From positions 1-39,362 of IMG/VR virus record IMGVR_UViG_3300003322_000743: a stretch of 39,362 nt of DNA; one strand, 5' to 3'. How positions within the stretch are numbered: position 1 is the first letter of the stretch; each line of letters begins with the position of its first letter. The stretch is from a virus. The notes below the pieces were generated by a model, which worked only from the letters and a program-made list of their open reading frames with translations, had not been told where the DNA came from and did not search any database. This document shows positions 16 through 39,362 of this stretch, in pieces. The translations under genes were made by a program, and so were the position numbers.

Positions 16-521
16 TTGCAATGCCCCAAAAACGCTTTATCGGCGTGATAGGTAGTTACGATAATCCCGAGCCTGAACCTAACGGAATCAGCCAGGGAAA
101 GATCGTAGAACTATTGCAGGAACTTCCCAATGTCACCGTACTGCCTAACGCCCCTGATATTCTGAGCGTTTACCGGCAAACCCGTATATTGATCATGCCA
201 TCGCTTTACGAATCTTGGGGACGCACAGCAACCGAAGCCATGTGCAGCGGCATCCCGGTAATATGTACACCTACGAATGGGTTGCTGGAGAACTGCGGTT
301 CTGCGGGAATTTTCATTGGAAATAAACTACCGTTGATACAGCCCGGGATGCCACAGGTGGACCGCGGCGCCATAGGAGAATGGGTGAAAGCTATCCAGTC
401 TCTTGACGATGAAGACGCCTATCGAAAATATTCGTTACTTTGCCAGCGGCGGGCCCGGGAACTTGACCCGCAAAAAGAACTGGAAGGATTGGAGTCTTTC
501 ATCATCAATGCCCGTTTTTAA
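1..521 (+). CDS. GT-B glycosyltransferase, C-terminal part (gene crosses the join)
   Basis: This is the 3' part of the gene that begins at 38858. Removing the 15-base overlap gives one frame of 1011 nt, 336 aa. The C-terminal half carries a GT4-like nucleotide-sugar site, with YESWGRTATEAMCSGIPV (an E-x7-E type motif) around residues 228-245. It probably transfers a sugar from an activated donor in the cytoplasm. The Asn-Lys-Gly-Gly loop usual in phage members after the inter-domain linker is not seen; the sequence runs TLISLGYWLRLLALAMP there. It is the last gene of the sugar cassette and is followed after 3 bases by the connector gene at 525. An internal ATG at 21 is not the start. The acceptor is unknown. 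Confidence 0.85.
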   Translation, partial: RLLALAMPQKRFIGVIGSYDNPEPEPNGISQGKIVELLQELPNVTVLPNAPDILSVYRQTRILIMPSLYESWGRTATEAMCSGIPVICTPTNGLLENCGSAGIFIGNKLPLIQPGMPQVDRGAIGEWVKAIQSLDDEDAYRKYSLLCQRRARELDPQKELEGLESFIINARF

Positions 522-524
522 TCC

Positions 525-1058
525 ATGAACCTCATTATTGACCTGGACAGGTTACATCTTACCACGACAATGCCTGTCTCGCGTGACGAGGCAAAAACCC
601 AACTGCGCATTACCTACACAGAAGATGACACAGAGATTGATAGCATGATCTCCCGCGCTGTCAAAGAAATTGAAAACTACTGCAACATTTCTATTGTCTA
701 CCAGCGAATCACCATGATCGCCGATTTAAAGCAGGAATGGAAATTGCCCTATGGTCCCGTTATCGGGCTGGAATCGGTAGAAACAAAATCCGCCCCGCAG
801 GGATCCGGCATCGGCATATTTTCCACCGCGTCCGCAAACTGGCAGATCGACGCCGATAATTTTGATCCGGGCAAGTATTGTTATCGCTGGCGGCTGGTTT
901 ACACGGCCGGCATGTCCGCTGTCCCTGATGATCTGAAGCAGGCAATACTACTGCAGATGGTTCACCTGTTTGAACACCGGGGAGATGAACAGCAGCAAGG
1001 ACTAAGCATGCAGGCAAAAGAAATGGTGGATCCTTATAAAGTACTATTATGGCTTTGA
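525..1058 (+). CDS. Head-tail connector protein (HK97 gp6-like)
   Basis: The 177-residue protein matches the gp6/phiE125 gp8 connector family: an N-terminal segment with paired helices (SRDEAKTQLRITYTEDD, then IDSMISRAVKEIENYC), a central beta region and a C-terminal helix (DDLKQAILLQMVHLFEHRGD). Connectors of this family form a ring under the portal after DNA packaging. It starts 3 bases after the glycosyltransferase stop and overlaps the next gene by 10 bases, as expected for a connector operon. The odd point is its place directly behind a glycosyltransferase and not behind the capsid gene. Confidence 0.85.
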   Translation: MNLIIDLDRLHLTTTMPVSRDEAKTQLRITYTEDDTEIDSMISRAVKEIENYCNISIVYQRITMIADLKQEWKLPYGPVIGLESVETKSAPQGSGIGIFSTASANWQIDADNFDPGKYCYRWRLVYTAGMSAVPDDLKQAILLQMVHLFEHRGDEQQQGLSMQAKEMVDPYKVLLWL

Positions 1059-1393
1059 CGATCGGAAAGATGGATAGAAGGGTAGTGATGCAGGGGAATA
1101 ACCCTACCGTTACGGCTACCGGCGGCCAGGTGGACGGTGATTTTTCCACGTATGCCAACACACGTGGTTATCTGCGCCGCAAAAGTGGCAATAAAGCAAT
1201 TGTTTTTGGCGATATTGCGCTCAATAACTCGTGGGAACTCTATGTACGATTCCAGATAAATATTCAGCAAAACCTCCGGGCCGATAATAAGATCATTATT
1301 GATATATCCCGCGTCTTTAAGGTAGAAGGCTTTGAATTGATTGAAGAAGATAGAATGTATTACCGGATCGATCTTACGGAGCAGACAAAATAA
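1049..1393 (+). CDS. Head closure protein (SPP1 gp16/HK97 gp7-like)
   Basis: This 114-residue protein has the small beta-barrel pattern of the head-closure (Phage_H_T_join) family: a short N-terminal strand (IGKMDRRVVMQ), a central set of strands including ELYVRFQ, and a C-terminal ending of the type FELIEEDRMYYRIDLTEQ. The family plugs the head and joins it to the tail. Order after the connector and before the gp10-like protein supports the call. The ATG overlaps the upstream stop by 10 bases. A hairpin begins 2 bases after its stop. Confidence 0.75.
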   Translation: MALTIGKMDRRVVMQGNNPTVTATGGQVDGDFSTYANTRGYLRRKSGNKAIVFGDIALNNSWELYVRFQINIQQNLRADNKIIIDISRVFKVEGFELIEEDRMYYRIDLTEQTK

Positions 1394-1416
1394 AAGGCCG
1401 TGTAGATACACAGCCT
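1392..1416 (-). terminator. Minus-oriented terminator-like hairpin A
   Basis: Bases 1395-1403 pair with 1108-type partners at 1408-1416 around a 4-base loop. On the plus strand the single mismatch is C1399 against A1412, which becomes a G-U pair in minus-strand RNA. Four A on the left become U after the stem on the minus strand. No plus-strand T-tract follows. It sits directly after the head-closure stop codon, and no minus-strand gene that it would end is visible. Confidence 0.55.
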
Positions 1417-1458
1417 CATTAAGAAATCCACCCTACGAAAGTTCATTAAAGGTAATAA

Positions 1459-1989
1459 ATGCCGACAACAATCATTCTTTCCGGTTTTAAAGAGTTCCAG
1501 GATAAGTTATCCCACATGCCGCAGCGGGTAAGTAAAGAAGTTGATGGTGTGATCGGTGTAGCGGCAGCAGACTGGGAGCGCCGCGCCAAACGGGATGCGC
1601 CGGTACACTATGGCCGGCTAAAAGGAAATATCACCCACAAAAAAAACGCGGAATTGAACTGGGAAGTAGTAAGTTCAATCCTCTACAGTCCTTTCCTGGA
1701 ATGGGGAACAAAAACAAAGATTTCAGTGCCTTCAGACCTTGCGGCCTATGCGGCGCAGTTTAAAGGATACAAGAGCGGCAGTTTGCAGGATTTCTATAAT
1801 AGCCTGTTTGAATGGGTAAGGTTGAAAGGCGTAGCGAGAGGTGGCGATGTAAAACAGGCAACATACATGATCATGCGGCATATCTTACGGTATGGCATCA
1901 GGCCGCAACCCTTTTTCTTTGTACAACGGCAGGCAGTAGAAAAGCAGTTGTTATCAGATATTAAACAAATACTTGAAACTGAACACTGA
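1459..1989 (+). CDS. HK97 gp10-like tail completion protein
   Basis: The 176-residue protein has the gp10-like signature: an N-terminal phrase LSGFKEFQDKLSHMPQ, then AKRDAPVHYGRLKGNI (DAPV-x-x-G-x-L) at about 51-66, then YSPFLEWGTKT and a C-terminal RPQPFFF motif. Members sit at the head-tail interface of siphoviruses. An insertion between the EWGT motif and the RPQPF motif (about residues 95-145) makes it longer than the roughly 110-150 residues usual for the family. Its stop overlaps the next ATG (TGATG). Confidence 0.85.
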   Translation: MPTTIILSGFKEFQDKLSHMPQRVSKEVDGVIGVAAADWERRAKRDAPVHYGRLKGNITHKKNAELNWEVVSSILYSPFLEWGTKTKISVPSDLAAYAAQFKGYKSGSLQDFYNSLFEWVRLKGVARGGDVKQATYMIMRHILRYGIRPQPFFFVQRQAVEKQLLSDIKQILETEH

Positions 1990-2435
1990 TGAAAGATACT
2001 ATGAAGCCGGCGCGGAAGGCATTTTATGACCTGCTGAATAATAACCTGAGCTATAATTCGGAGCTGGTGCCAGTGTATGATAAGAAGCGGAAGGTGCAGG
2101 ACCTGAATACCTTCTTTGTTCTTTTTGGTGTGCAGCAGGAAACGCCCGATCCTGTGGATGGTGCATGGATAACCGACTGCACGATTGACCTGGAAATAAT
2201 CTACCGGTCCCATCACGAGGTTTCACAGGATCCTGTAGATGATGTAAGCGACCAGATTTATGAACTGCTGGAGCCGTATGCCGGGGAGAATGGATTGCCG
2301 GCACAACCTTTTTTCCTGATCCAATTGGTAAGGCGGCAGGTGGCTGTATCGCGGGTATTTGAGATCAGTACTACAGAATCGGAGGTTAGCAAAATCATCA
2401 CGATCGCTTTTAAGATGATTCAGCAGGCGGCATAG
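1989..2435 (+). CDS. Tail terminator/completion protein (DUF3168-like)
   Basis: The 148-residue protein has the size and order of a gp17/DUF3168-type tail terminator: an N-terminal helix (ARKAFYDLLNNN), mixed strands, a central segment with VSDQIYELLE and a C-terminal strand pair. Such proteins cap the tail tube and fix tail length. It lies between the gp10-like gene and the tail tube gene, the standard position. Sequence recognition is weak and the call rests mainly on synteny. It is followed by a 393-base gap with strong secondary structure. Confidence 0.65.
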   Translation: MKDTMKPARKAFYDLLNNNLSYNSELVPVYDKKRKVQDLNTFFVLFGVQQETPDPVDGAWITDCTIDLEIIYRSHHEVSQDPVDDVSDQIYELLEPYAGENGLPAQPFFLIQLVRRQVAVSRVFEISTTESEVSKIITIAFKMIQQAA

Positions 2436-2441
2436 GCCACT

Positions 2442-2488
2442 CGATTTTCCTGGATCACTGCCAAAAGTAAATGAGGGCAGGAAAATCG
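2442..2488. other. 11-bp inverted repeat after the tail terminator gene
   Basis: CGATTTTCCTG (2442-2452) and CAGGAAAATCG (2478-2488) are perfect reverse complements around 25 bases. It starts 7 bases after the stop at 2435. No T-tract follows on either strand, so it may be an mRNA 3'-end stabiliser and not a terminator. Confidence 0.5.
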
Positions 2489-2552
2489 CAACTTTACCCT
2501 GACAAAAAAATATATGCTATGTTTCTTATAATTTTGCGTTATGTTACTTAGC

Positions 2553-2587
2553 AAAAAGCCCGTTGTATGTTTTAGTACACAACGGGC
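2553..2587 (-). terminator. Minus-oriented terminator B
   Basis: GCCCGTTGT (2558-2566) pairs perfectly with ACAACGGGC (2579-2587) around a 12-base loop. On the minus strand the stem is followed by TTTTT (2553-2557 read in reverse). The plus strand has no T-tract after it. It lies 10 bases beyond the 22-bp stem of the structured RNA and would form its 3' end. Confidence 0.7.
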
Positions 2588-2728
2588 GCTAAGGAATAAA
2601 CCCGGATGATTATTTGATGCTACCGCCTTTTGGACGGGCGGAAATTCAGAAAGTGGTTGCGGTATTGCCGTCTTGGGGACTAAGCACTGACAACCGGCTT
2701 TCTTCACATCAAATAATCATCCGGGTTT
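2553..2728 (-). ncRNA. Probable minus-strand structured RNA with its own terminator
   Basis: On the minus strand, a perfect 22-bp stem (2707-2728 with 2598-2619) encloses 87 bases that fold further. GAAAG/CTTTC (2649-2653 with 2698-2702) and GGTTG/CAACC (2655-2659 with 2691-2695) form one arm, and CCGCC/GGCGG (2623-2627 with 2637-2641) a second, giving a three-way junction. Ten bases after the long stem comes a perfect 9-bp hairpin followed by five U. The region has no convincing reading frame on either strand. It lies in the 393-base gap between the tail terminator and tail tube genes. No known RNA family is recognised. Confidence 0.6.
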
Positions 2729-2805
2729 TGTGTATGCAGGCTTTGCTATTTAATATAACGGCTATTATAAGAAACCTACTTTTCAGGGTAATTCGTCAGA
2801 ATCCT

Positions 2806-2830
2806 TAACTTTATCAAAATTAATCCGTAT
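2806..2830 (+). promoter_or_regulatory. Late leader motif before the tail tube gene
   Basis: TAACTTTA (2806-2813) resembles the Bacteroidetes -7 box TAnnTTTG. It is followed by TTAATCCGTAT at 2820-2830, which runs into the ATG at 2829. The same 11-mer, behind a TACC-type box, precedes the portal and protease genes. No TTTG box is seen at the usual upstream distance, so this may be a phage-specific late promoter or a translation leader. Confidence 0.45.
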
Positions 2831-3257
2831 GTCAACGCCTACCACTGTACAAGGAAACCTTGTACCTATCTCCCTGAGTACTGATAACAGCACCTACAAA
2901 TCTATTGTCTGTAATCGTGCATGGGACCTGGATTTAAACAGTTCCGTTACGCAGGAAGAAACCGATTGCGGATCATTCCCTGCACTCGGTGCAGTAACAT
3001 GGGCATTTAACATGGAAGGTGTATTGAATACGACACCTAACGGCGCCACGGAAATGAGCGCAAAAGCCGTGATGGATATCGCCAACAATCAAACCGTATG
3101 CTACATCAAAGTGCAGTATCCTAACCCGGGCGGCACTGATTTTTACATGCGGGGCCAGGGATACATTACTAACTTCAAGATCACCAAACAAACAGGTTCA
3201 CTAATTGCCTTCTCTGCTACATTCACCGGTAGCGGAATAATGGACACAACACCATAG
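2829..3257 (+). CDS. Major tail tube protein
   Basis: The 142-residue protein follows the tail terminator and precedes the G/GT chaperones, the universal place of the tube protein. It is a beta-rich sequence with the tube-like pattern: an early segment YKSIVCNRAWDLDLN, a set of alternating strands, then GQGYITNFKITKQTGSLIAFSATFTGSG, in which the last strand and GSG turn recall TP901-1/gpV-type tubes. Hexameric rings of such proteins stack around the tape measure. The start at 2829 lies directly on the conserved TTAATCCGTAT leader motif. Confidence 0.8.
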   Translation: MSTPTTVQGNLVPISLSTDNSTYKSIVCNRAWDLDLNSSVTQEETDCGSFPALGAVTWAFNMEGVLNTTPNGATEMSAKAVMDIANNQTVCYIKVQYPNPGGTDFYMRGQGYITNFKITKQTGSLIAFSATFTGSGIMDTTP

Positions 3258-3258
3258 T

Positions 3259-3699
3259 ATGAATACACTTACCCTTTTGCCTCGCAAGACTTTTATAATA
3301 ACTCTTGATGATGGCACTGAAATTAAAGGCCAATACAGTACATGGGCGCTAAAAAGATTCTGTGATCATCTTAATTGTACACTCAGCCAGTTATTTGAGA
3401 AACTGAAAGAGCCTACGCTTGACATAATGTTCATGTATATTCTATCAGCACTTGAATATTCGGCAAGGATTGAAAAGAAGCCTTTTAGTTATACAGATGT
3501 GAATATAAGCCAATGGATCGATGATATGGAAGGTAATGCAATCGATAACCTTGTTGTTATATTCAATCATTCCGCCGACCAGGATTTGAATGAAGAAAAA
3601 AAAAGCCTGACGGAGGGCAGCAACCAGAATGGGCAGACCTCCAGAGAATCTATTACAGTACAGGAAGATCTGCCGATGATTTCTGGCGATCAACAATAG
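3259..3699 (+). CDS. Tail assembly chaperone G
   Basis: The 146-residue protein starts one base after the tube stop. It has the gpG pattern: an N-terminal beta segment (KTFIITLDDGTEIKGQYSTWAL), a helical core (RFCDHLNCTLSQLFEKLK) and a poorly conserved tail. Chaperones of this type coat the tape measure during tail assembly. The frame contains a slippery A AAA AAA at 3597-3603; most ribosomes should read on to give G, and a fraction should shift to give the GT product. Confidence 0.8.
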   Translation: MNTLTLLPRKTFIITLDDGTEIKGQYSTWALKRFCDHLNCTLSQLFEKLKEPTLDIMFMYILSALEYSARIEKKPFSYTDVNISQWIDDMEGNAIDNLVVIFNHSADQDLNEEKKSLTEGSNQNGQTSRESITVQEDLPMISGDQQ

Positions 3700-3902
3700 A
3701 AGAGGTTGAATTATCTATACGGGGAAAGGTAGAAGATTGGCGTTATGCACGACGGAATGCATACCTGATCATGAGTGTTTGGGCAAAGCAAACGGCATCG
3801 GAAAAACAGCTAATGCCGCTTCCTTTTGACGATGAGTTCGATAGTCCTGAAATGGATGATATTGAAAAAATATATTGGGGATCTCAAGTACCTTACAATT
3901 AA
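3259..3902 (+). CDS. Tail assembly chaperone GT, by programmed -1 frameshift
   Basis: A -1 shift at A AAA AAA (3597-3603) joins residues 1-115 of G to a 99-residue T domain read in frame from 3603 to the stop at 3900-3902, 214 aa in all. The T frame has no ATG of its own near its start and is open throughout. It contains SADDFWRSTIEEVELSIRG and then DWRYARRNAYL, the FW-x-x-(T/S)-x-x-E and R-x-x-AYL pattern seen in T domains. It fills the gap before the tape measure exactly, ending 5 bases before its ATG. This is the lambda G/GT arrangement; only the efficiency is unknown. Confidence 0.85.
3597..3603 (+). promoter_or_regulatory. -1 ribosomal frameshift site A AAA AAA
   Basis: Nine A at 3596-3604 place A AAA AAA in phase with the G frame (codons 3598-3600 and 3601-3603). 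Slipping one base back leads into the T frame. The bases just downstream (GCCTGACGGAGGGC) could form a short stimulatory stem, which was not verified. Confidence 0.8.
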
Positions 3903-3907
3903 TTAAG

Positions 3908-6076
3908 ATGGCCGGAAATATACTATCAGCGAAGATCGTAGCCACGGCGCCCGGAGTAAAAGAGACATTTGAATCTATTTCTAAATCAGCCGAACAATCT
4001 TCACTTGCCTTAGAAAAAACCGCACCAGCCGCCAAAAAAACGGTAGAGGCTATAACACAAATTGTTCCGGCAGCAAAAAGTTTATCCACAGAGGTTACAA
4101 AAAGTACTGACATACTTGGTAACTTCCAAAAATCTATTTCGAGCCTTGATTTTTCAGATAAATTTGTCGCAGCGCAGCAAAGGATAGAGCAATCAATAGA
4201 TAAAATGGCAACTGCTGCAATTCAAGCAGAAGCGCCGATTGAAAACCTGGGACAAACTGCTTCAAAAATATCATCAGACTTTTCAACATTACAAAACTCT
4301 GTTGCGAAATTTGGCGGAGGAGTCAGAACATTTTCTTCCGATTTCAATAAAGTATATCCCGCCGCGAATAAAACGTCTGATTCATTAAAAAAACTTTCTC
4401 CGGCAACTAACAGAGCAACGGGTGATCTTATAAACCTTGGACGCGTTGTGCAGGATGCACCCTTTGGATTTATCGGCATTGCAAATAACCTTAACCCTTT
4501 AATTGAAGGATTTTCGCGGACAGCCAAAGAGGCCGGGGGTTTCCGTGGAACACTCAAAGCGCTAGGTGGTGCACTTGCCGGAGCTGGCGGTATTTCATTA
4601 GGTATATCTTTAGTTTCTTCTGCCCTTGTACTTTTCGGCGATCGTCTTTTTGGATCATCAAAAGCAGCTAAAGCATTAGATGAATCAACATCTGCCCTTG
4701 CAAAGAAATTTGCGGATCAGGCCGTAACGTTAACTACGCTTGTCGGAATTGTCCAAAATGTTAATAGTTCCTATGAGGATAAGAAAAAAGCACTGAAGGC
4801 ACTTAACCAGGAGTATGCCACTTATCTGGATGCGCTGGGAAAAGAAGAAATAAATGCAAACAATATTGCTGCGGCTTATGAAAGGATCGTCGATGCGTTG
4901 ATAAGGCAAGCGGTAGTAAAAGGCATACAAGAACAGATTTCACAGGCAGTAGAGCAAACAGCAAAGCAATTAATAAAACTGCAGGTTGCTCATGAGCAGG
5001 CAGCAATTGCCGCAAAACAGCGACAGAAAGCGGAACAAAATACTGATAGCGTAAAAACAGCACAGAATTTAAGAACGCTATCTGCTTCTATTGAACAGTA
5101 TCAACGAGGCGCTACGGATGGTATCCTTGCACAACAAGGATTTAACAGGGAGCAGATAAATGCGGCAGACAATGTTAAGTTTTATAATGACCGCGTCAAA
5201 CAATTAAAAGATACATTACTTAGCCAACTCGCTCCGCTGCTGAATCTGACTACCAATTTTGAAGACCTTAACATTAAACTGGATAAGGGAGCAAAGAAAG
5301 TAAAAGAGTTCCGGGAGGAAATGCAAGCCTTAAAAGATTTAGGCACTATCGATCCGGCAAAAGGATTTATTATAAAAGAATTAAATATCCGCGGCATTAA
5401 AATACCATCAGTGCCGGAACCGGAGATTAAAAAAATATCCGATCAATTACAAAAAGCAGTCGACGAGTTCACGAAAAATAATCCCATCCTGCTGCGGGCT
5501 AAACTGGAATCGGAAAAAGGGGATCAGCGCCGTAAATCCTTTTTCAGCGCATTAGGATTAGAAGATCCTGAAGCCGAAGACCCTTTATCGAATGCACAGA
5601 AAGGTGTGATCAATCTTGCCAATAGCGTACGCGGTGTGTTGACTCCCGCTTTCAATGATTTTTTTACCGCGATTCGTAAAGGCGTGAACCCAATAAAAGC
5701 CTTCTTTGAAGCCATTGGCCAAGCTATTTTGGATACCATTCAAAAATTTATACAGGCAGCAATTGTAGCTGCTATCTTCAATGCTATTCTTGGCGGCAAT
5801 TCCCCGGGATTTGGATCACTGTTTAAACAATTTGCCGGTTTCCGGGCGGCTGGAGGCCCTGTCAGCGCCGGTAAATCCTACGTGGTCGGCGAAAACGGTC
5901 CCGAGTTATTTACTCCCAATACAGGCGGCAGGATCATTCCCAATAATAAGACCGCAGGTACACCTACAGCGGCTTTCGGCGGCATGCAGCTTATTTCAGA
6001 GACAAGAGTAAGCGGTGATAGCCTGTTATACTTACATTACCTTACTCTTAGAAAGCAGGGACGGCTGAACGGATAG
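3908..6076 (+). CDS. Tape measure protein
   Basis: The 722-residue protein starts at 3908 (MAGNILSAKIV), 5 bases after the T stop; the upstream ATG at 3875 lies within the T frame. The N-terminal 150 residues are Ser/Ala/Thr/Lys-rich helices. At about 175-195 lies LGRVVQDAPFGFIGIANNL, a phrase I know from Bacteroidetes tape measures, followed by a hydrophobic stretch (GALAGAGGISLGISLVSSAL). A coiled-coil part follows. The C-terminus has a hydrophobic segment (FIQAAIVAAIFNAILG) and then AAGGPVSAGKSYVVGENGPELF, the usual tape-measure ending. By the common 1.5 angstrom per residue rule the tail would be near 110 nm (inference). Confidence 0.9.
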   Translation: MAGNILSAKIVATAPGVKETFESISKSAEQSSLALEKTAPAAKKTVEAITQIVPAAKSLSTEVTKSTDILGNFQKSISSLDFSDKFVAAQQRIEQSIDKMATAAIQAEAPIENLGQTASKISSDFSTLQNSVAKFGGGVRTFSSDFNKVYPAANKTSDSLKKLSPATNRATGDLINLGRVVQDAPFGFIGIANNLNPLIEGFSRTAKEAGGFRGTLKALGGALAGAGGISLGISLVSSALVLFGDRLFGSSKAAKALDESTSALAKKFADQAVTLTTLVGIVQNVNSSYEDKKKALKALNQEYATYLDALGKEEINANNIAAAYERIVDALIRQAVVKGIQEQISQAVEQTAKQLIKLQVAHEQAAIAAKQRQKAEQNTDSVKTAQNLRTLSASIEQYQRGATDGILAQQGFNREQINAADNVKFYNDRVKQLKDTLLSQLAPLLNLTTNFEDLNIKLDKGAKKVKEFREEMQALKDLGTIDPAKGFIIKELNIRGIKIPSVPEPEIKKISDQLQKAVDEFTKNNPILLRAKLESEKGDQRRKSFFSALGLEDPEAEDPLSNAQKGVINLANSVRGVLTPAFNDFFTAIRKGVNPIKAFFEAIGQAILDTIQKFIQAAIVAAIFNAILGGNSPGFGSLFKQFAGFRAAGGPVSAGKSYVVGENGPELFTPNTGGRIIPNNKTAGTPTAAFGGMQLISETRVSGDSLLYLHYLTLRKQGRLNG

Positions 6077-6079
6077 TCT

Positions 6080-6087
6080 TATATTTG
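6080..6087 (+). promoter_or_regulatory. TATATTTG box four bases before a start codon
   Basis: TATATTTG matches the Bacteroidetes -7 consensus TAnnTTTG exactly and is separated by ACAA from the ATG at 6092. No TTTG is found 19-21 bases upstream. If active it would give a leaderless transcript; it may be chance. Confidence 0.25.
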
Positions 6088-6091
6088 ACAA

Positions 6092-8449
6092 ATGCCGTAC
6101 GCTACTGAATACAGGATCGAGTGGGATACTGTGCCCATAGATGATGTCCCGGGTAACGAAATCCCTTCCAAAACAGTACGTGTTTCAATCTTTGATACAT
6201 CTTCCGAGGCCGATAATACGGCGGTAATTACGCTTCAAGCTGCCGGAGATCCGCTAAAGATCATCGTTATTGATAACGACGAAAACAAGTTTACCCCCCT
6301 TCGCGGAAAACAGGCCACCATCCAGTTTATCAGCCGGCAAAACCAGTTCCAGGACGCCAGCACCTTCGCCGATTCGTCAGATAACCGGTGGAAGGTAGAT
6401 ATAGCAATTGACCCGGACGGAGATAATGAGCCAATATTTACAGGCTTTCTTGTCCTTACTGATCTGCAGCAACCCTTTCAACCCGACCCGCAAATCGTTA
6501 CACTGCGGGCCAGTGATCACCTCGCCATCCTTTCCGATGTTCCGCTGACCGAAGATGATGAAAGCAACCCGGCCGGAAAATACAGGATTGCAGAACTGAT
6601 CGCCCTTTGTTTAAAGAAAACAGGGCTATCGTTAAACATAAATGTGATCAACAATTTGCGGCAGGGATCGGGAGACTTCACCCGGTTAGTATCGTTCCAG
6701 GAAACTATCGGAGATGCCGATAATGTCTTAGTAACTGCGATTACCACATACTTCTACCCGGGCCAAAGAATTACTATCTCCGGTACGGCAAGCAATAATG
6801 GCACCTTCACTGTCCTTAGCGTGACGCAGAACATAGTTACATTCGTTACTCTCCTGGAATCAGTGGTCGATGAAACAGACGTTACCGCAACTTTTTCAGA
6901 TAATAATTCCGGTCACTTTTATGATACCTGCTATTTGGATGCTCGTACATTCGAATCAAACATCAATGAATGCGAAGATTGTCATTCTGTATTATCGAAG
7001 ATATTAGGATTTGATTGCGTTCTTTTCCAGTATAAAAGCGAATGGTGGATCGTTCGTATTGATGAGTATGAAAGTAACCCATTTTACCGGTTTATTTTTG
7101 ATGCCGACGGCGAACTGCTTTCTAATGATACGGTAGATTTAACGCGCAGTATTGGCGCTGCCGATCCCATACGGCTGGCTCTCGCCGACGCACTACTGCG
7201 GCTTGACCGACCATACAGGCATGATAAATTAACTTTCAATTTTAATACGCCTGAAGAAATTATTTGCAATGGTGATTATTCACGCGGCGATCCAACGAGC
7301 GACCCCGACCTGCAGCAATCCGGGTACACCGCTTATGAGCTGGACGATTGGGAAGTAAAAAAGGACTGGGGTAGCAATGAAACGACACCCGATATTAAAT
7401 CATCGATTCAGCGATCGTTTAGTCAATTGGGTGATGAGGAGCAGCGGTTTATCATGCTCACATATCCATCGGACTTTCTACAGGGATCAAAGAATTATAT
7501 CCGCTCCTGCGCTATTCCTATGAGCGCACTCGACCGGTTCCAGTTTTCTTTCGATATATCTGCCATGACCAATCCATCGGGTGATGGCACGCTGACAGAT
7601 ATATGCATTATCATGTACTATGGCGCTAGTAGTGGCCAAATCTATGTTTTGGGGACAGTAGACGGCACAGATCCATGGATCAATACCGATCCGCCACCGC
7701 CAACAACATGGAAAGTTACCAATGCTGAATTAACACTTTTTCGCAACGGCCTTTCTTGGGCCATGTTCACGGGCGTTGATAAAAGAGATTGGCAGGGATG
7801 CCAAATCGTTGGCGCGCCGGTGCCGGAGGAAGGGGAATTGCGCATCCATTTATTTGGCGCTAACCATGAATCAGGCGACTTTGATACTTTTAACGTCAGG
7901 TATCAAAATCTTTCCTTTGAGTACAGTGCCTATATTGGCGGTACTTACAGGAAGTATACGGGCCAATATCATAAAGTAACGAGGACGAGCCCGGTAGGAT
8001 ATAATGCGAAGATCGAAGATGAGGTATTTATCAGCGATTCGCCAAAGCCGATTTATAAAGGCGGCATCTTTATTCCAACTTCAACCAGCTATCATTTGGC
8101 CGGGCAGTTTTGGGCCTCTGCTCCTTTTGCACTTGGAGGACCTCCCGGCGATAATTACTTTCATGCGTATGGATATATCCAGGCATTCAGCGTGTGGAAC
8201 CAATATAGACGCGGTAACCGCATATTTACCGGTACTGTCTATGGGATGGGTTTAAATTGGGTGGATCTGCTTCATAAGGTAGTATTATCGGATACCAACC
8301 CGAACACCAATAACAGGTTTTTCTTGCTAATTTCGATGGAACAAAATTGGCGATCGGGATTATGGACAGCCACATTTGTTGAATGTTTCAGGACGGGCGT
8401 ACCCAAAGTATACAGTGACGATCATTTATTTAAATACATAACCGAATAG
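6092..8449 (+). CDS. Large tail tip/hub protein
   Basis: The 785-residue protein directly follows the tape measure, where distal-tail and Tal-like proteins lie. The N-terminal 150 residues are beta-rich and resemble a distal-tail or hub domain (FTGFLVLTDLQQPFQPDPQIV). At about 195-265 a beta-sandwich-like insertion is visible (PGQRITISGTASNNGTF). At about 290-330 comes a Cys-containing stretch (NECEDCHSVLSKILGFDCV, then EWWIVRIDEYE), familiar from Bacteroidetes siphophage tail proteins. The C-terminal half looks like a carbohydrate-binding beta structure. No catalytic motif is visible. The exact role, hub or adhesin, is inference. Confidence 0.6.
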   Translation: MPYATEYRIEWDTVPIDDVPGNEIPSKTVRVSIFDTSSEADNTAVITLQAAGDPLKIIVIDNDENKFTPLRGKQATIQFISRQNQFQDASTFADSSDNRWKVDIAIDPDGDNEPIFTGFLVLTDLQQPFQPDPQIVTLRASDHLAILSDVPLTEDDESNPAGKYRIAELIALCLKKTGLSLNINVINNLRQGSGDFTRLVSFQETIGDADNVLVTAITTYFYPGQRITISGTASNNGTFTVLSVTQNIVTFVTLLESVVDETDVTATFSDNNSGHFYDTCYLDARTFESNINECEDCHSVLSKILGFDCVLFQYKSEWWIVRIDEYESNPFYRFIFDADGELLSNDTVDLTRSIGAADPIRLALADALLRLDRPYRHDKLTFNFNTPEEIICNGDYSRGDPTSDPDLQQSGYTAYELDDWEVKKDWGSNETTPDIKSSIQRSFSQLGDEEQRFIMLTYPSDFLQGSKNYIRSCAIPMSALDRFQFSFDISAMTNPSGDGTLTDICIIMYYGASSGQIYVLGTVDGTDPWINTDPPPPTTWKVTNAELTLFRNGLSWAMFTGVDKRDWQGCQIVGAPVPEEGELRIHLFGANHESGDFDTFNVRYQNLSFEYSAYIGGTYRKYTGQYHKVTRTSPVGYNAKIEDEVFISDSPKPIYKGGIFIPTSTSYHLAGQFWASAPFALGGPPGDNYFHAYGYIQAFSVWNQYRRGNRIFTGTVYGMGLNWVDLLHKVVLSDTNPNTNNRFFLLISMEQNWRSGLWTATFVECFRTGVPKVYSDDHLFKYITE

Positions 8450-9175
8450 ATGCCGGACATTAAAGTACTGAGTGAAAACTACATTTTCTCGCTCAAAGTA
8501 GATGGGACATATTACCCCATCTTTTGTGCGAAATCGGTCAACTTCCCTATTGACCAGGACGCGATTGAAATAACAAATGTCAATTCGGGACCTGTTCGTG
8601 AATATACACCCGGGCAAAATACCGCTACTATTTCAGCAAGCGGGATCACCGAGATCAATAATAGCGAAGGCCGGATATCGCCCTTCTACCTGAAACTGCT
8701 GGCTACCCGCAGGGCAATACAGGATTTACGGGTACTCGCAACTTCAAATAATGGCGTACAACTGGCTATTACTTTCCGGGCTTTCATCACGCATATTGAA
8801 ACCGGGAAAGATGTTGGATCCTTCTCAAATGCTTCAGTGACGTTCCAAATTACGGGTGGAATAACATTCAGCGATGTAATCCCGGGCCCCGGCGAACCGG
8901 TGTGCGAAGTGCAGGATCCTTTGTATGTAGTAGGTATCGAAAACGAATATATTGTGCAAAGCTCATTCCTAAGAAATGAAGATGGACTTTTAAAAACTAT
9001 CCTCGAAGTACAGCGGGAAGGCACCGGGCATGATGAGACAGAAAGTGATCCGGGTAACCGTCAATTCAGGTATACGGCCGATAGTGATTTTGGTTATATC
9101 GAATTCGATGATACCAACCCATTCAACCCGGGCGGAGAAACGATTTATATTCTTTACAAAATTCAAACTGAGTGA
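8450..9175 (+). CDS. Tail protein with tube-like domain
   Basis: This 241-residue protein starts on the base after the upstream stop. Residues about 15-145 resemble a TP901-1-type tail tube fold: strands around IEITNVNSGPVREYTPGQNT, a helix (SPFYLKLLATRRAIQDLRV) and the ending SFSNASVTFQITGGI. The C-terminal 90 residues form a separate beta domain. A true tube gene already exists at 2829, so this copy, placed after the tip protein, may be a tip ring or a fibre-attachment protein. The assignment is by pattern and position only. Confidence 0.5.
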   Translation: MPDIKVLSENYIFSLKVDGTYYPIFCAKSVNFPIDQDAIEITNVNSGPVREYTPGQNTATISASGITEINNSEGRISPFYLKLLATRRAIQDLRVLATSNNGVQLAITFRAFITHIETGKDVGSFSNASVTFQITGGITFSDVIPGPGEPVCEVQDPLYVVGIENEYIVQSSFLRNEDGLLKTILEVQREGTGHDETESDPGNRQFRYTADSDFGYIEFDDTNPFNPGGETIYILYKIQTE

Positions 9176-9462
9176 TACAAAGCAGGATATATATTGGTTC
9201 GCCCGGTCTCTACGCGATATCAGATGCCGAACTGATCAATGTAACTATTTTGGGAGTAAAACGGGAGGGCCGCGGCCAAAACGTGATTGCCGATGATCCG
9301 GACGCCGATGCTGTCTTGGTGCCGGGTTACCGCGGGTGTGCTTACTTACCCGGAAGTGGACGATTGAGATTTGCCGATCCTTTTAATTCGCCGGATGAAC
9401 CGGATTTTGTTGTTGATATCTTCCCGTTTCTGGAACGGGTTTGGGTACTTTTTAAAACGTGA
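9172..9462 (+). CDS. Small tail-region protein, GTG start
   Basis: A 96-residue protein with no recognised domain. The only usable start is GTG at 9172, overlapping the upstream stop (GTGA), which implies translational coupling. It has a beta-rich, Gly/Asp/Pro-containing sequence ending in DIFPFLERVWVLFKT. It lies between the tube-like tail protein and the SGNH hydrolase gene, so a role as an adaptor in the tail tip is possible but unproven. Confidence 0.6.
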   Translation: MIQSRIYIGSPGLYAISDAELINVTILGVKREGRGQNVIADDPDADAVLVPGYRGCAYLPGSGRLRFADPFNSPDEPDFVVDIFPFLERVWVLFKT

Positions 9463-9464
9463 CT

Positions 9465-12317
9465 ATGAAAAAATTATTGATCGCCTTTGTTATTCTGCTG
9501 TGTATTAAAGTAAATGCGCAAATCCCCGGCTATACGGGAATTAACTCAGGCTATGATTGGCTGCGCGGTAAATTTCGCGCTCTTCATGTTCCTGCAGGAG
9601 GAACGGTATCGCTTTCTGTCGGCCAGTATTCGGGATCTGGAGCAATTATGTATGACTCTACCGGGGCAGACAGCGGGTTTTATGTATGGCATTATCCTTA
9701 TTGGGTGAAGCTGGCACCTGCCAGCAGCGTGTACGGAACATTACAACAAATATTTGATGCGGAGTCCGCCAAAGCGGTAACCAATAAGGATGATACTATA
9801 TCGATCGGTTCAAACCGTTTCGTGATCAATGGTAATAGTTTCTTTTCAATGAGCCCGGCGGCGGTACAGATCAACCCTTATCTCGGCGTACTAAAGATCG
9901 ATTCGCTGAATGCCGGTGCCGGGACAAAGGCACTTCGCTGGGATCCTGCTACAGGAGCAGTAACCGTTGCCGATACCACAACCGGCGGCAGCGGCAGCGG
10001 AGCGGTTTCGGAAGGACTTATAAAGCGAAATGATACGACGGTAATTGCCAATAACCGAAATATTTATTACCTCAATCAACCGACTTCAGGCAGTTCATTA
10101 CCCGCTTACATGACGGCGGTAGGATCACCGGTATATACCGTGAGTAACGGCGTATTCCAGTTTGGTGGCAATGGCGATAATAATACGCAGTATATCCGCT
10201 TCAATGCCGGTGTGCTGTCGGAAGGATCTTACATCGAGGGCTATGTGATCATTGATTCGCTCAATACTTTTTCTCAAGGACCTGGATTTATATGGAAATC
10301 CTATAATTCATATTCAGGAACGACATATGCACATGACGTGATCGCCCGCATGATCACCGGATCAGCAGCCAGCAATACGGGCAAAGCGCTGATCTACGGA
10401 AAAACAGGTAACTCTTCGAATTATTCCGACAGCTCGCGGGCATCCTCCGCAGGAGATACAATATACTTTCGTTTCGATCGCGACGGCCTGGCCTACACGC
10501 TGCGGGTTAAAAACCTGACAAAAGGGTGGAAGCTATATAAGCAGGTGCAGACGACGCCAGCAGGAAGCCCTTTTGTAGCGCATAACAGCGCTTACGTTGG
10601 CTTCATCCCGGGCTCTGGCGGTTATAAGCTGTATGGATGGAAATATGTAGTAAAAGCGCCCCTGTACACGGAGAACTATATTGTCGGTAATTCAATTGCC
10701 TACCGGCAGGGTGCAACTACCGAAGGCGGTGGATGGGCATCTCTGGTAGGTACTCCATCGCTCAACATTGTTTCCGGTGGCGGGGCAGATGGAACAGCAT
10801 CCGTGCTTGCACGTTTGCACGAAATCAAGGCTATCAATCCCAAAAGGGTAATCCTGATGATTGGCGGTAATGACATTTTATTCGGCATATCTTCCGGTAC
10901 ATGGCAAGCCAATTATTTGGCGATCCGAGATTCCCTGGTAAGTTGGGGCATTGAAGTAGTACATTGTCTTCCGACACCACGAACAGCAACCGATGTATCA
11001 GCGCTGAAAAATTATATCGACACATCCAGTACTTTCCGCTCTGATATCAAAATAGATACATGGACACCGCTTTGGTCGGGATCGGGTACGTCGCTGGCAA
11101 CAAAGTATAATCTCGATGGCACCCATCCCAATGATGCCGGTCACTTGCAGATAGCATCGACCGTTAATACCGCTTTGCATTATAGTAATGGAGATGGGCA
11201 GTATGTTGCCGCCAATGGGTATGCGTATAACGGTTATTATATGGCCAGAACGCCGACCACTGGAGATGCTAACAAGAATGGGGCTTTTATTGCCCTGGCT
11301 TCCGGTACGTCGAAGACTTCTTACGTTACAATGGCCCGTGAATCCGGTTACGGTGTGATTGAGGCGAGGACAGAAGGATCTAGCTATGACCCGGTGGTTT
11401 TATCGCCTTACGGTGCAACATCGGTTGGCATTCGTGAAACATCACCATCAGCCACCCTGGATATAAAAAATAGTACGGCAGGAACAGCACTGGCTATGAT
11501 CGTTAACCATGCAGGGGCTTACTCTGCTAATGATCAAGAGCTGCAATTCGATTGGCAGAATGCGCATGCGACACGTGGCCGTATCGCCACGTATTTGCAT
11601 AATAGTTCACGGTTTGGGTTCAAGTTCTATACCTACACCGGTTCGGTGCTGAATACTACGCCGGCACTTACACTGACAGGCGATAATACTATAGGGGTAT
11701 TGACAACTGCGCCGACGGCAAGGCTACACCTGCCGGCCGGCACAACTGCCGCATCGACGGGACCATTAAAATTCACCAGCGGATCACTGATGACTTCTCC
11801 GGAAGCGGGTGCGGTAGAGTTCCTGACTGATAAATGGTATGCAACGATTACCACAGGAACGGCGAGGAAAGAGGTAACGTTAAATGATGCGGCACTTACT
11901 TCCGGCGTTACTCCGGTTGCCACGACTAACGGCCGGTTAACAGATGGCCTTACCCTGGCTTCCTCAACGTATACGCCGACTATCACTACTGTATCTAATG
12001 TTGATGTAGCTACGCCATCTGTATTCGGTTATGACCGGGTTGGTAATTCAGTAAGAGTATGGGGAGAAATCGATATAGATCCGACTGTTATCTCTACTGC
12101 CACTGAAATTGGAATAAGCCTGCCGGTAGCCAGTGCATTTACATTGAGATCACAACTGGGCGGTAGCGGAGTCGGTGATAATGTAACTCTATCGGGTGCG
12201 ACATTATCATCCAGCGTATATGCAGATGCGACAAATGACCGGGCTAGTTTCAGGTTTACATCGCTGGGTACTGGAGTGGTTACGGTTACCTTTCATTTCT
12301 CGTATACGATATTATAA
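9465..12317 (+). CDS. Signal-peptide-bearing SGNH/GDSL hydrolase with fibre-like ends
   Basis: From the ATG at 9465 the protein has 950 aa and begins with a clear Sec signal peptide (KKLLIAFVILLCIKVNA, cut before Gln). Residues about 400-575 form an SGNH hydrolase domain: block I YIVGNSIA with Ser near 409 (Asn replaces the usual Asp), block III IGGND near 466-469, and block V LDGTHPNDAG with Asp and His near 550-553. This suggests an esterase or deacetylase acting on acetylated glycans. The flanking parts are Gly/Ser/Thr-rich and beta-like; the C-terminus (RVWGEIDIDPT, then ISLPVASAF) is a fold I associate with Bacteroidetes phage tail proteins. A GTG at 9459 is an alternative start. A structural protein with a signal peptide is odd; secretion is the other option. 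Confidence 0.75.
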   Translation: MKKLLIAFVILLCIKVNAQIPGYTGINSGYDWLRGKFRALHVPAGGTVSLSVGQYSGSGAIMYDSTGADSGFYVWHYPYWVKLAPASSVYGTLQQIFDAESAKAVTNKDDTISIGSNRFVINGNSFFSMSPAAVQINPYLGVLKIDSLNAGAGTKALRWDPATGAVTVADTTTGGSGSGAVSEGLIKRNDTTVIANNRNIYYLNQPTSGSSLPAYMTAVGSPVYTVSNGVFQFGGNGDNNTQYIRFNAGVLSEGSYIEGYVIIDSLNTFSQGPGFIWKSYNSYSGTTYAHDVIARMITGSAASNTGKALIYGKTGNSSNYSDSSRASSAGDTIYFRFDRDGLAYTLRVKNLTKGWKLYKQVQTTPAGSPFVAHNSAYVGFIPGSGGYKLYGWKYVVKAPLYTENYIVGNSIAYRQGATTEGGGWASLVGTPSLNIVSGGGADGTASVLARLHEIKAINPKRVILMIGGNDILFGISSGTWQANYLAIRDSLVSWGIEVVHCLPTPRTATDVSALKNYIDTSSTFRSDIKIDTWTPLWSGSGTSLATKYNLDGTHPNDAGHLQIASTVNTALHYSNGDGQYVAANGYAYNGYYMARTPTTGDANKNGAFIALASGTSKTSYVTMARESGYGVIEARTEGSSYDPVVLSPYGATSVGIRETSPSATLDIKNSTAGTALAMIVNHAGAYSANDQELQFDWQNAHATRGRIATYLHNSSRFGFKFYTYTGSVLNTTPALTLTGDNTIGVLTTAPTARLHLPAGTTAASTGPLKFTSGSLMTSPEAGAVEFLTDKWYATITTGTARKEVTLNDAALTSGVTPVATTNGRLTDGLTLASSTYTPTITTVSNVDVATPSVFGYDRVGNSVRVWGEIDIDPTVISTATEIGISLPVASAFTLRSQLGGSGVGDNVTLSGATLSSSVYADATNDRASFRFTSLGTGVVTVTFHFSYTIL

Positions 12318-38861: not shown

Positions 38862-39362
38862 GGATACTTTTTTGTCTTCACCTTTACTGTCCAGTTCACA
38901 TGTGCGGATCTGAAATGGTTGCTCACCGTGTTCTCAAGTTCCTTCAATCAAAAGGCCATGAGGTTCGCGTGCTTTTGCACCGCGATAATGGACTACAAAC
39001 GCCTTACACCTATGACGGCATTGAAGTATTTAAAGCCCGTGACCGCTTCGATCAATATCAATGGGCGGACCGGCTGCTCTGTCACCTCGATTTTACGCAA
39101 CATATGTGCATTGCAGCGCATGAATGCCGGCTACCGCTGATCCACTTCATCCATAACGACATTAAATATGCCTGCATCGCAAACGGCATCCGTGGGCATC
39201 ATATCGTATATAATTCAGAATGGACGAAGAAAGCTATCGGCTACGATTGGCCGTCGTATGTCTTGCATCCGCCCTGCGATATTGATCACTACCGGGTAGA
39301 TAATACCGGCGCTGATGCAATTACGCTTATTAGTCTTGGTTATTGGCTTCGCCTGTTAGCCC
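38858..39362 (+). CDS. GT-B glycosyltransferase, N-terminal part (continues at base 1)
   Basis: The gene begins at the ATG at 38858, coupled to its neighbour by ATGA, and runs in frame into base 1 of the window (336 aa in all). The N-terminal domain is a GT-B Rossmann fold: MRILFCLHLY, CGSEMVAHRVLKFLQSKGHE (the G-x-E-x-x-x-x-x-L motif), VYNSEWTKKAIGYDWPSYVL and HPPCDIDHYRV. This order is typical of phage GT4 enzymes that recognise a nucleotide sugar with the C-terminal half. See the entry at 1-521. Confidence 0.85.
   Translation, partial: MRILFCLHLYCPVHMCGSEMVAHRVLKFLQSKGHEVRVLLHRDNGLQTPYTYDGIEVFKARDRFDQYQWADRLLCHLDFTQHMCIAAHECRLPLIHFIHNDIKYACIANGIRGHHIVYNSEWTKKAIGYDWPSYVLHPPCDIDHYRVDNTGADAITLISLGYWLRLLA
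39348..39362. repeat. Terminal direct repeat (second copy)
   Basis: Identical to bases 1-15. It represents the overlap of the circular sequence and lies within the GT-B glycosyltransferase gene. Confidence 0.9.

Follow-up and report, generated by a model that had tools for sequence, protein, structure and literature searches.

The structured patch between two tail genes of this virus is most likely the central part of a DNA docking site that folds, and not primarily an RNA gene. On the basis of its sequence and by analogy with known systems we regard positions 2494-2791 of the window (the whole stretch of 39,362 nucleotides analyzed here), with moderate confidence, as a phage attachment cassette for the Xer system of the host, which the phage would use as attP. 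The cassette consists of two inverted sites that resemble dif, the chromosome-resolution site of bacteria. The spacer of A1 has an odd length of 7 bp and that of A2 measures 6 bp. Their XerD sides face a 198-nt insert, and their XerC sides are turned to the phage backbone, where short inverted repeats close the cassette (Table 1).

The cassette lies in a 393-nt gap (2436-2828), with the genes for a tail terminator (1989-2435, phrog_176) and for a major tail protein (2829-3257, phrog_1407) on either side. As the original prediction stated, this gap holds no convincing gene: it contains a minus-strand ORF that crosses the hairpin and a plus-strand ORF that crosses A2, neither of which matches Pfam, and a protein-coding insert was consequently dropped as a candidate. 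The perfect 22-bp stem, the inner arms that it encloses and the perfect hairpin ten bases from it (2558-2566/2579-2587, with five T on the minus strand at 2557-2553) are all present as first described. The structure that had been placed at 2553-2728 is thus real, but it covers no more than the interior of a nested palindrome in which the 22-bp stem is surrounded, from the outside in, by the inverted repeats 2494-2502/2783-2791, 2518-2532/2764-2778 and 2537-2555/2742-2760. This whole fold is not a product of chance. None of 100 shuffled sequences was as stable, whether folded as RNA (z of -9.9 for the minus strand and -9.8 for the plus strand) or as DNA (z of -9.6 and -9.4 on the two strands), and the longest stem complement in shuffles was 9 nt compared with 22 nt here. 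The exact sequence of the 22-bp stem was absent from the viral contigs searched, and no DNA similar to the structured region was found in the phage collection.

Table 1 Features of the proposed attachment cassette and its surroundings. L004 is a unit in a related phage contig and L019 a unit at a chromosomal dif.
Feature	Position	Strand	Remarks
Left flanking hairpin, XerC side	arms 2442-2452/2478-2488		left of the cassette; hairpins in the same place in L004 and L019
Left outer inverted repeat TTACCCTGA	2494-2502	+	counterparts TTACAGTGGCA in L004 and TTACAGGGGCA in L019
A1, dif-like Xer site GTTTCTTATAA-TTTTGCG-TTATGTTACTT	2521-2549	+	XerC arm 2521-2531, 7-bp spacer 2532-2538, XerD arm 2539-2549
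Insert (D module in pdif terms)	2550-2747		198 nt between the XerD arms, no convincing ORF
Hairpin with five U on the minus strand	2553-2587	-	possible terminator of a leftward insert transcript
22-bp stem, left arm	2598-2619		perfect complement
22-bp stem, right arm	2707-2728		perfect complement
A2, inverted dif-like Xer site GTTTCTTATAA-TAGCCG-TTATATTAAAT	2775-2748	-	XerD arm 2748-2758, 6-bp spacer 2759-2764, XerC arm 2765-2775
Right outer inverted repeat TCAGGGTAA	2783-2791	+	

A1 and A2 are the only sites with at most three mismatches to dif in the 39 kb searched, and they stand 198 nt apart in inverse orientation with their XerD sides inward. Sixty simulated genomes, matched to the window in first-order composition, yielded four single dif-like sites and no inverted pair, so that the presence of two strong inverted sites argues for an attachment site. 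The shared arm motif, CTTATAAT-N-CGTTATRTTAMWTA, was located in Bacteroidota genomes, where clean copies read TGTCTTATAA-TTAACA-TTATGTTAAAT with the 11-6-11 layout of dif; several of the 14 genome matches of this motif lie outside Bacteroidota and were left out of the comparison. The dif site of E. coli also ends in TTATGTTAAAT. The same is true of the presumptive dif of PM2 (PMC9966536). The A1 spacer starts with TT, a beginning shared by the dif spacers TTAACA, TTAATA and TTTACA in the sequences compared, and the predicted DNA fold pairs the arms of A1 and A2 on either strand. Departures from dif in the XerD arm of A2 and in the last bases of A1 count against the attachment site. G002-G005, the closest terminase relatives, contain no dif-like site with three mismatches or fewer, indicating that the phage lineage can do without it.

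The arm motif might instead be a phage or host promoter present in two inward-facing copies, given that its TTATAAT resembles a -10 box and that the single copy in phage record L016 lies upstream of a gene. We hold this to be very unlikely, as a promoter would not account for the 11-6-11 arrangement of dif, for chromosomal copies that neighbor a conserved gene or for inverted pairs with covarying flanks. Two other candidates were rejected. An IS630-type MITE with a TA duplication, considered because of the ends TTACCCTGA, was discarded because the arms are dif-like and the ends differ among elements. An integron attC site came into question since GTTAAAT/ATTTAAC fits its core consensus, but it agrees less well than dif with the 11-6-11 layout and with the chromosomal copies.

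Other phages also carry dif-like sites. The major tail protein has relatives at only one locus in the viral contigs, and through such a relative we reached L004 (phage contig G001). The tail gap of L004 is only 51 nt long and its two middle arms sit in a different gap, whose neighbors are a head-tail adaptor-type gene (1137-1754) and the structural gene after it, and there they enclose an 85-aa minus-strand ORF. A second tailed phage, L082 (G410), recognized as a contractile-tail phage from its sheath, hub and tape-measure genes, carries an inverted dif-like pair at 6784-6842, four bases apart with the XerC sides inward, beside a baseplate gene, and this pair also supports the attachment-site reading. 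L016 is a 38.9-kb record that in our reading of its portal-type protein is Mu-like. It contains a single dif-like site (6173-6199, 6-bp spacer) between gene blocks, which by analogy could be a one-site attachment site of the VGJphi kind.

Homologous units are also present at chromosomal dif in Chitinophagaceae (L019, L066, L063 and L031), where an A1 with a 7-12-bp spacer is followed by a small insert, an inverted A2, a near-palindrome of 46-125 nt and a clean dif. That this third site is the chromosomal dif is supported by the neighbor gene on its side, which is kept between L019 and L066 with 64% identity. The A1 region of the window matches G041 (L066) over 38 nt (89%, E = 3.7e-7), and a hairpin right after A1 is common to the two. 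This direct similarity to A1, together with the presence of the unit in L004, the homology and identical order of the Chitinophagaceae units and their conserved dif-side gene, points to an attachment site. So do the XerC-side stems, which in five elements pair without a mismatch over 18-25 nt (22 nt in the case of phage L004) yet differ in sequence, indicating that it is the pairing and not the sequence that is kept. In the window the stems measure 9 nt on the XerC side and 22 nt on the XerD side. The chromosomal elements have their short hairpin on the XerC side, whereas in the window it is on the XerD side, which argues against the attachment-site reading. At L063 (692-2332) the mini-element, 807 bp long, occurs twice in tandem before a clean dif, as expected from tandem integrations. 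Weak element matches in further Chitinophagaceae (L091-L105) have no dif-like site inside and were taken as chance.

These comparisons also bear on the original prediction, in which the fold itself was the selected feature, namely a minus-strand regulatory, antisense or decoy RNA. The order of stem, arms and five-U hairpin on the minus strand and the leftward genes that occupy the same slot in relatives speak for such an RNA. We nevertheless consider it improbable because no Rfam family reached its gathering score in the window, the terminator-like hairpin by itself is at chance level (1 found versus 1.0 expected) and the conserved dif arms fall outside the proposed RNA. Moreover both strands fold about equally well, so that the fold alone does not pick a strand. 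No tRNA was detected either. The suggested action on tail-tube expression or as a decoy against host defence found no support, since there is no conserved RNA sequence, a related phage has an ORF as insert and its unit lies in another gap. Leftward transcription fared better, as small minus-strand ORFs lie in the inserts of L004, L019 and L066 and a hairpin stands beside A1 in L066 as well, even if the fold favors neither strand. The inserts of the relatives vary. Their minus-strand ORFs measure 71, 81, 81 and 85 aa, a DUF1737-like one among them scoring below the cut-off of that family, and PADLOC identified no defence-related cargo in the relatives. A minus-strand RNA may therefore exist as the transcript of a passenger; nothing that we found makes it the purpose of the feature.

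An attachment site for host recombinases agrees with the gene content of these phages. No tyrosine (PF00589) or serine (PF00239) recombinase domain was found in six phage records (G000, G001, G002, G004, G013 and G410, of which G001 and others may be fragments), with positive controls that worked, and there is no integrase among the PHROG matches of the window. Integrated copies of this phage or of a close relative at dif were searched for and none was seen, which counts against the attachment-site reading. The window record is probably a circular map, since its first and last 15 bases (1-15 and 39348-39362) are identical and a glycosyltransferase-like gene seemingly runs across the ends (compare L004 21-983).

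If the cassette acts as attP, one strand would become single during replication, recombination or cruciform extrusion, and the 22-bp stem and the outer repeats would draw A1 and A2 together as a single bulged duplex that resembles dif and is comparable to the folded attP(+) of CTXphi. Host XerC, binding this folded site, would join it to chromosomal dif through one strand exchange, and the integrase-less tailed phage would thereby lysogenise. The insert would be a variable passenger, here a structured stretch that is probably transcribed leftward, with the hairpin at 2558-2587 as its probable terminator. Tailed phages have, to our knowledge, no obvious single-stranded stage, which counts against the folded-strand route. 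In CTXphi, attP1 (12-bp spacer) and attP2 (5-7 bp) are likewise inverted, lie 90 bp apart and pair on a single strand (PMC4246890); XerC makes the sole exchange during integration and the bases adjoining the XerC arm set the specificity (PMC4246890, PMC5357621). The window resembles this IMEX class in having two inverse dif-like sites close together, in the predicted single-strand pairing and in the lack of a phage integrase. Unequal spacers may be a further parallel, with 7 and 6 bp in the window and 11 and 6 bp in L004. In contrast, the filamentous phage CTXphi contains ssDNA and its sites are 90 bp apart, whereas the window phage is tailed, has a 39-kb genome and separates its sites by 198 nt. 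The window also has the 22-bp stem between the XerD sides and an A1 spacer of 7 instead of 12 bp, and integration of its phage is a prediction.

The phages described as integrating through Xer are filamentous, microvirus-like or tailless (PMC4246890, PMC3091885, PMC9966536). In the literature on tailed phages and Bacteroidota, of which our coverage is incomplete, we found no tailed phage that integrates by host Xer. The Bacteroidetes microvirus proviruses at dif (BMV) and the ssDNA phage PhiCjT23 share with the window phage the host phylum, a dif-type att and the absence of an integrase, and BMV4-6 bear a further dif-like site that recalls CTXphi (PMC3091885), but these phages are small, contain ssDNA and are not tailed. 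NO16 and the PM2-like phages, according to the accessible text of their report, have dsDNA and dif-like sites, and use of XerCD has been proposed for them; they are tailless, unlike the window phage, and that text reports no inverted hairpin-forming pair (PMC9966536).

In pdif terms the phage backbone corresponds to a C module and 2550-2747 to a D module. This opens a rival explanation in which the unit is a passenger mobile cassette (a dif module or mini-element): the phage would not lysogenise by it but could carry it to new hosts, where it would enter dif. Sub-kilobase versions without phage genes do sit at chromosomal dif, and the unit occupies different gaps in two phages and is missing from other relatives. 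In Acinetobacter plasmids, D modules are bounded by inverted sites, one of them without any ORF, and as in the window inverse Xer sites surround a small insert, with an XerC-bounded backbone and one D module (PMC13141974). The insert of the window is bounded in this way, with the XerD sides inward at 2550-2747. The plasmid modules, however, have 28-bp sites with 6-bp spacers, whereas the unit in the window has a 7-bp A1 spacer (A2, 6 bp), is carried by a tailed phage and has flanks that form hairpins. Furthermore, the junction with phage DNA lies beyond the XerC-side repeats and not at an Xer site, so that entry by Xer is not visible, and a phage without integrase would profit from an attachment site. 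We judge a passenger cassette to be rather unlikely. Weak plasmid matches of the region were mostly to Acinetobacter plasmids, and in one of these (L061) the BLAST match covers a pdif-type site, TTTCGTATAA-CGTGTA-TTATGTTAATT, whose inverted partner is degenerate.

Returning to the attachment cassette, we tentatively extend it to a wider proposal, possible though short of probable, that tailed dsDNA phages of Bacteroidota which lack an integrase become lysogenic through a CTX-type Xer reaction on a folded strand, and that the same cassette without a phage forms a family of sub-kilobase elements moving between phages and chromosomal dif with tiny genes or RNAs as cargo. If this is true, the lack of an integrase would not mean that such phages are lytic, dif would be the place to seek their prophages, and the minute elements at chromosomal dif would be linked to phages able to carry them.

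Several additional observations were made. Positions 2529-2536 (plus strand) and 2822-2815 (minus strand) both read TAATTTTG, the sequence of the Bacteroidota -7 promoter box; a convincing -33 partner was not seen. The window encodes, besides the major tail protein, a second protein matching the phrog_1407 family (8450-9172, E = 1.7e-10). In a Flavobacteriales genome (L049, G008:C4), 9.5 kb between two direct dif-like sites (383-9890) encode a secreted-looking protein of 1956 aa and two others, with no phage gene recognized by eye. Finally, read on the strand of A2, a GGAA-type motif (often AAGGAAGT) lies just beyond the XerC arm of A2 in L004, L019, L031, L059, L064 and L066, and is degenerate in the window.
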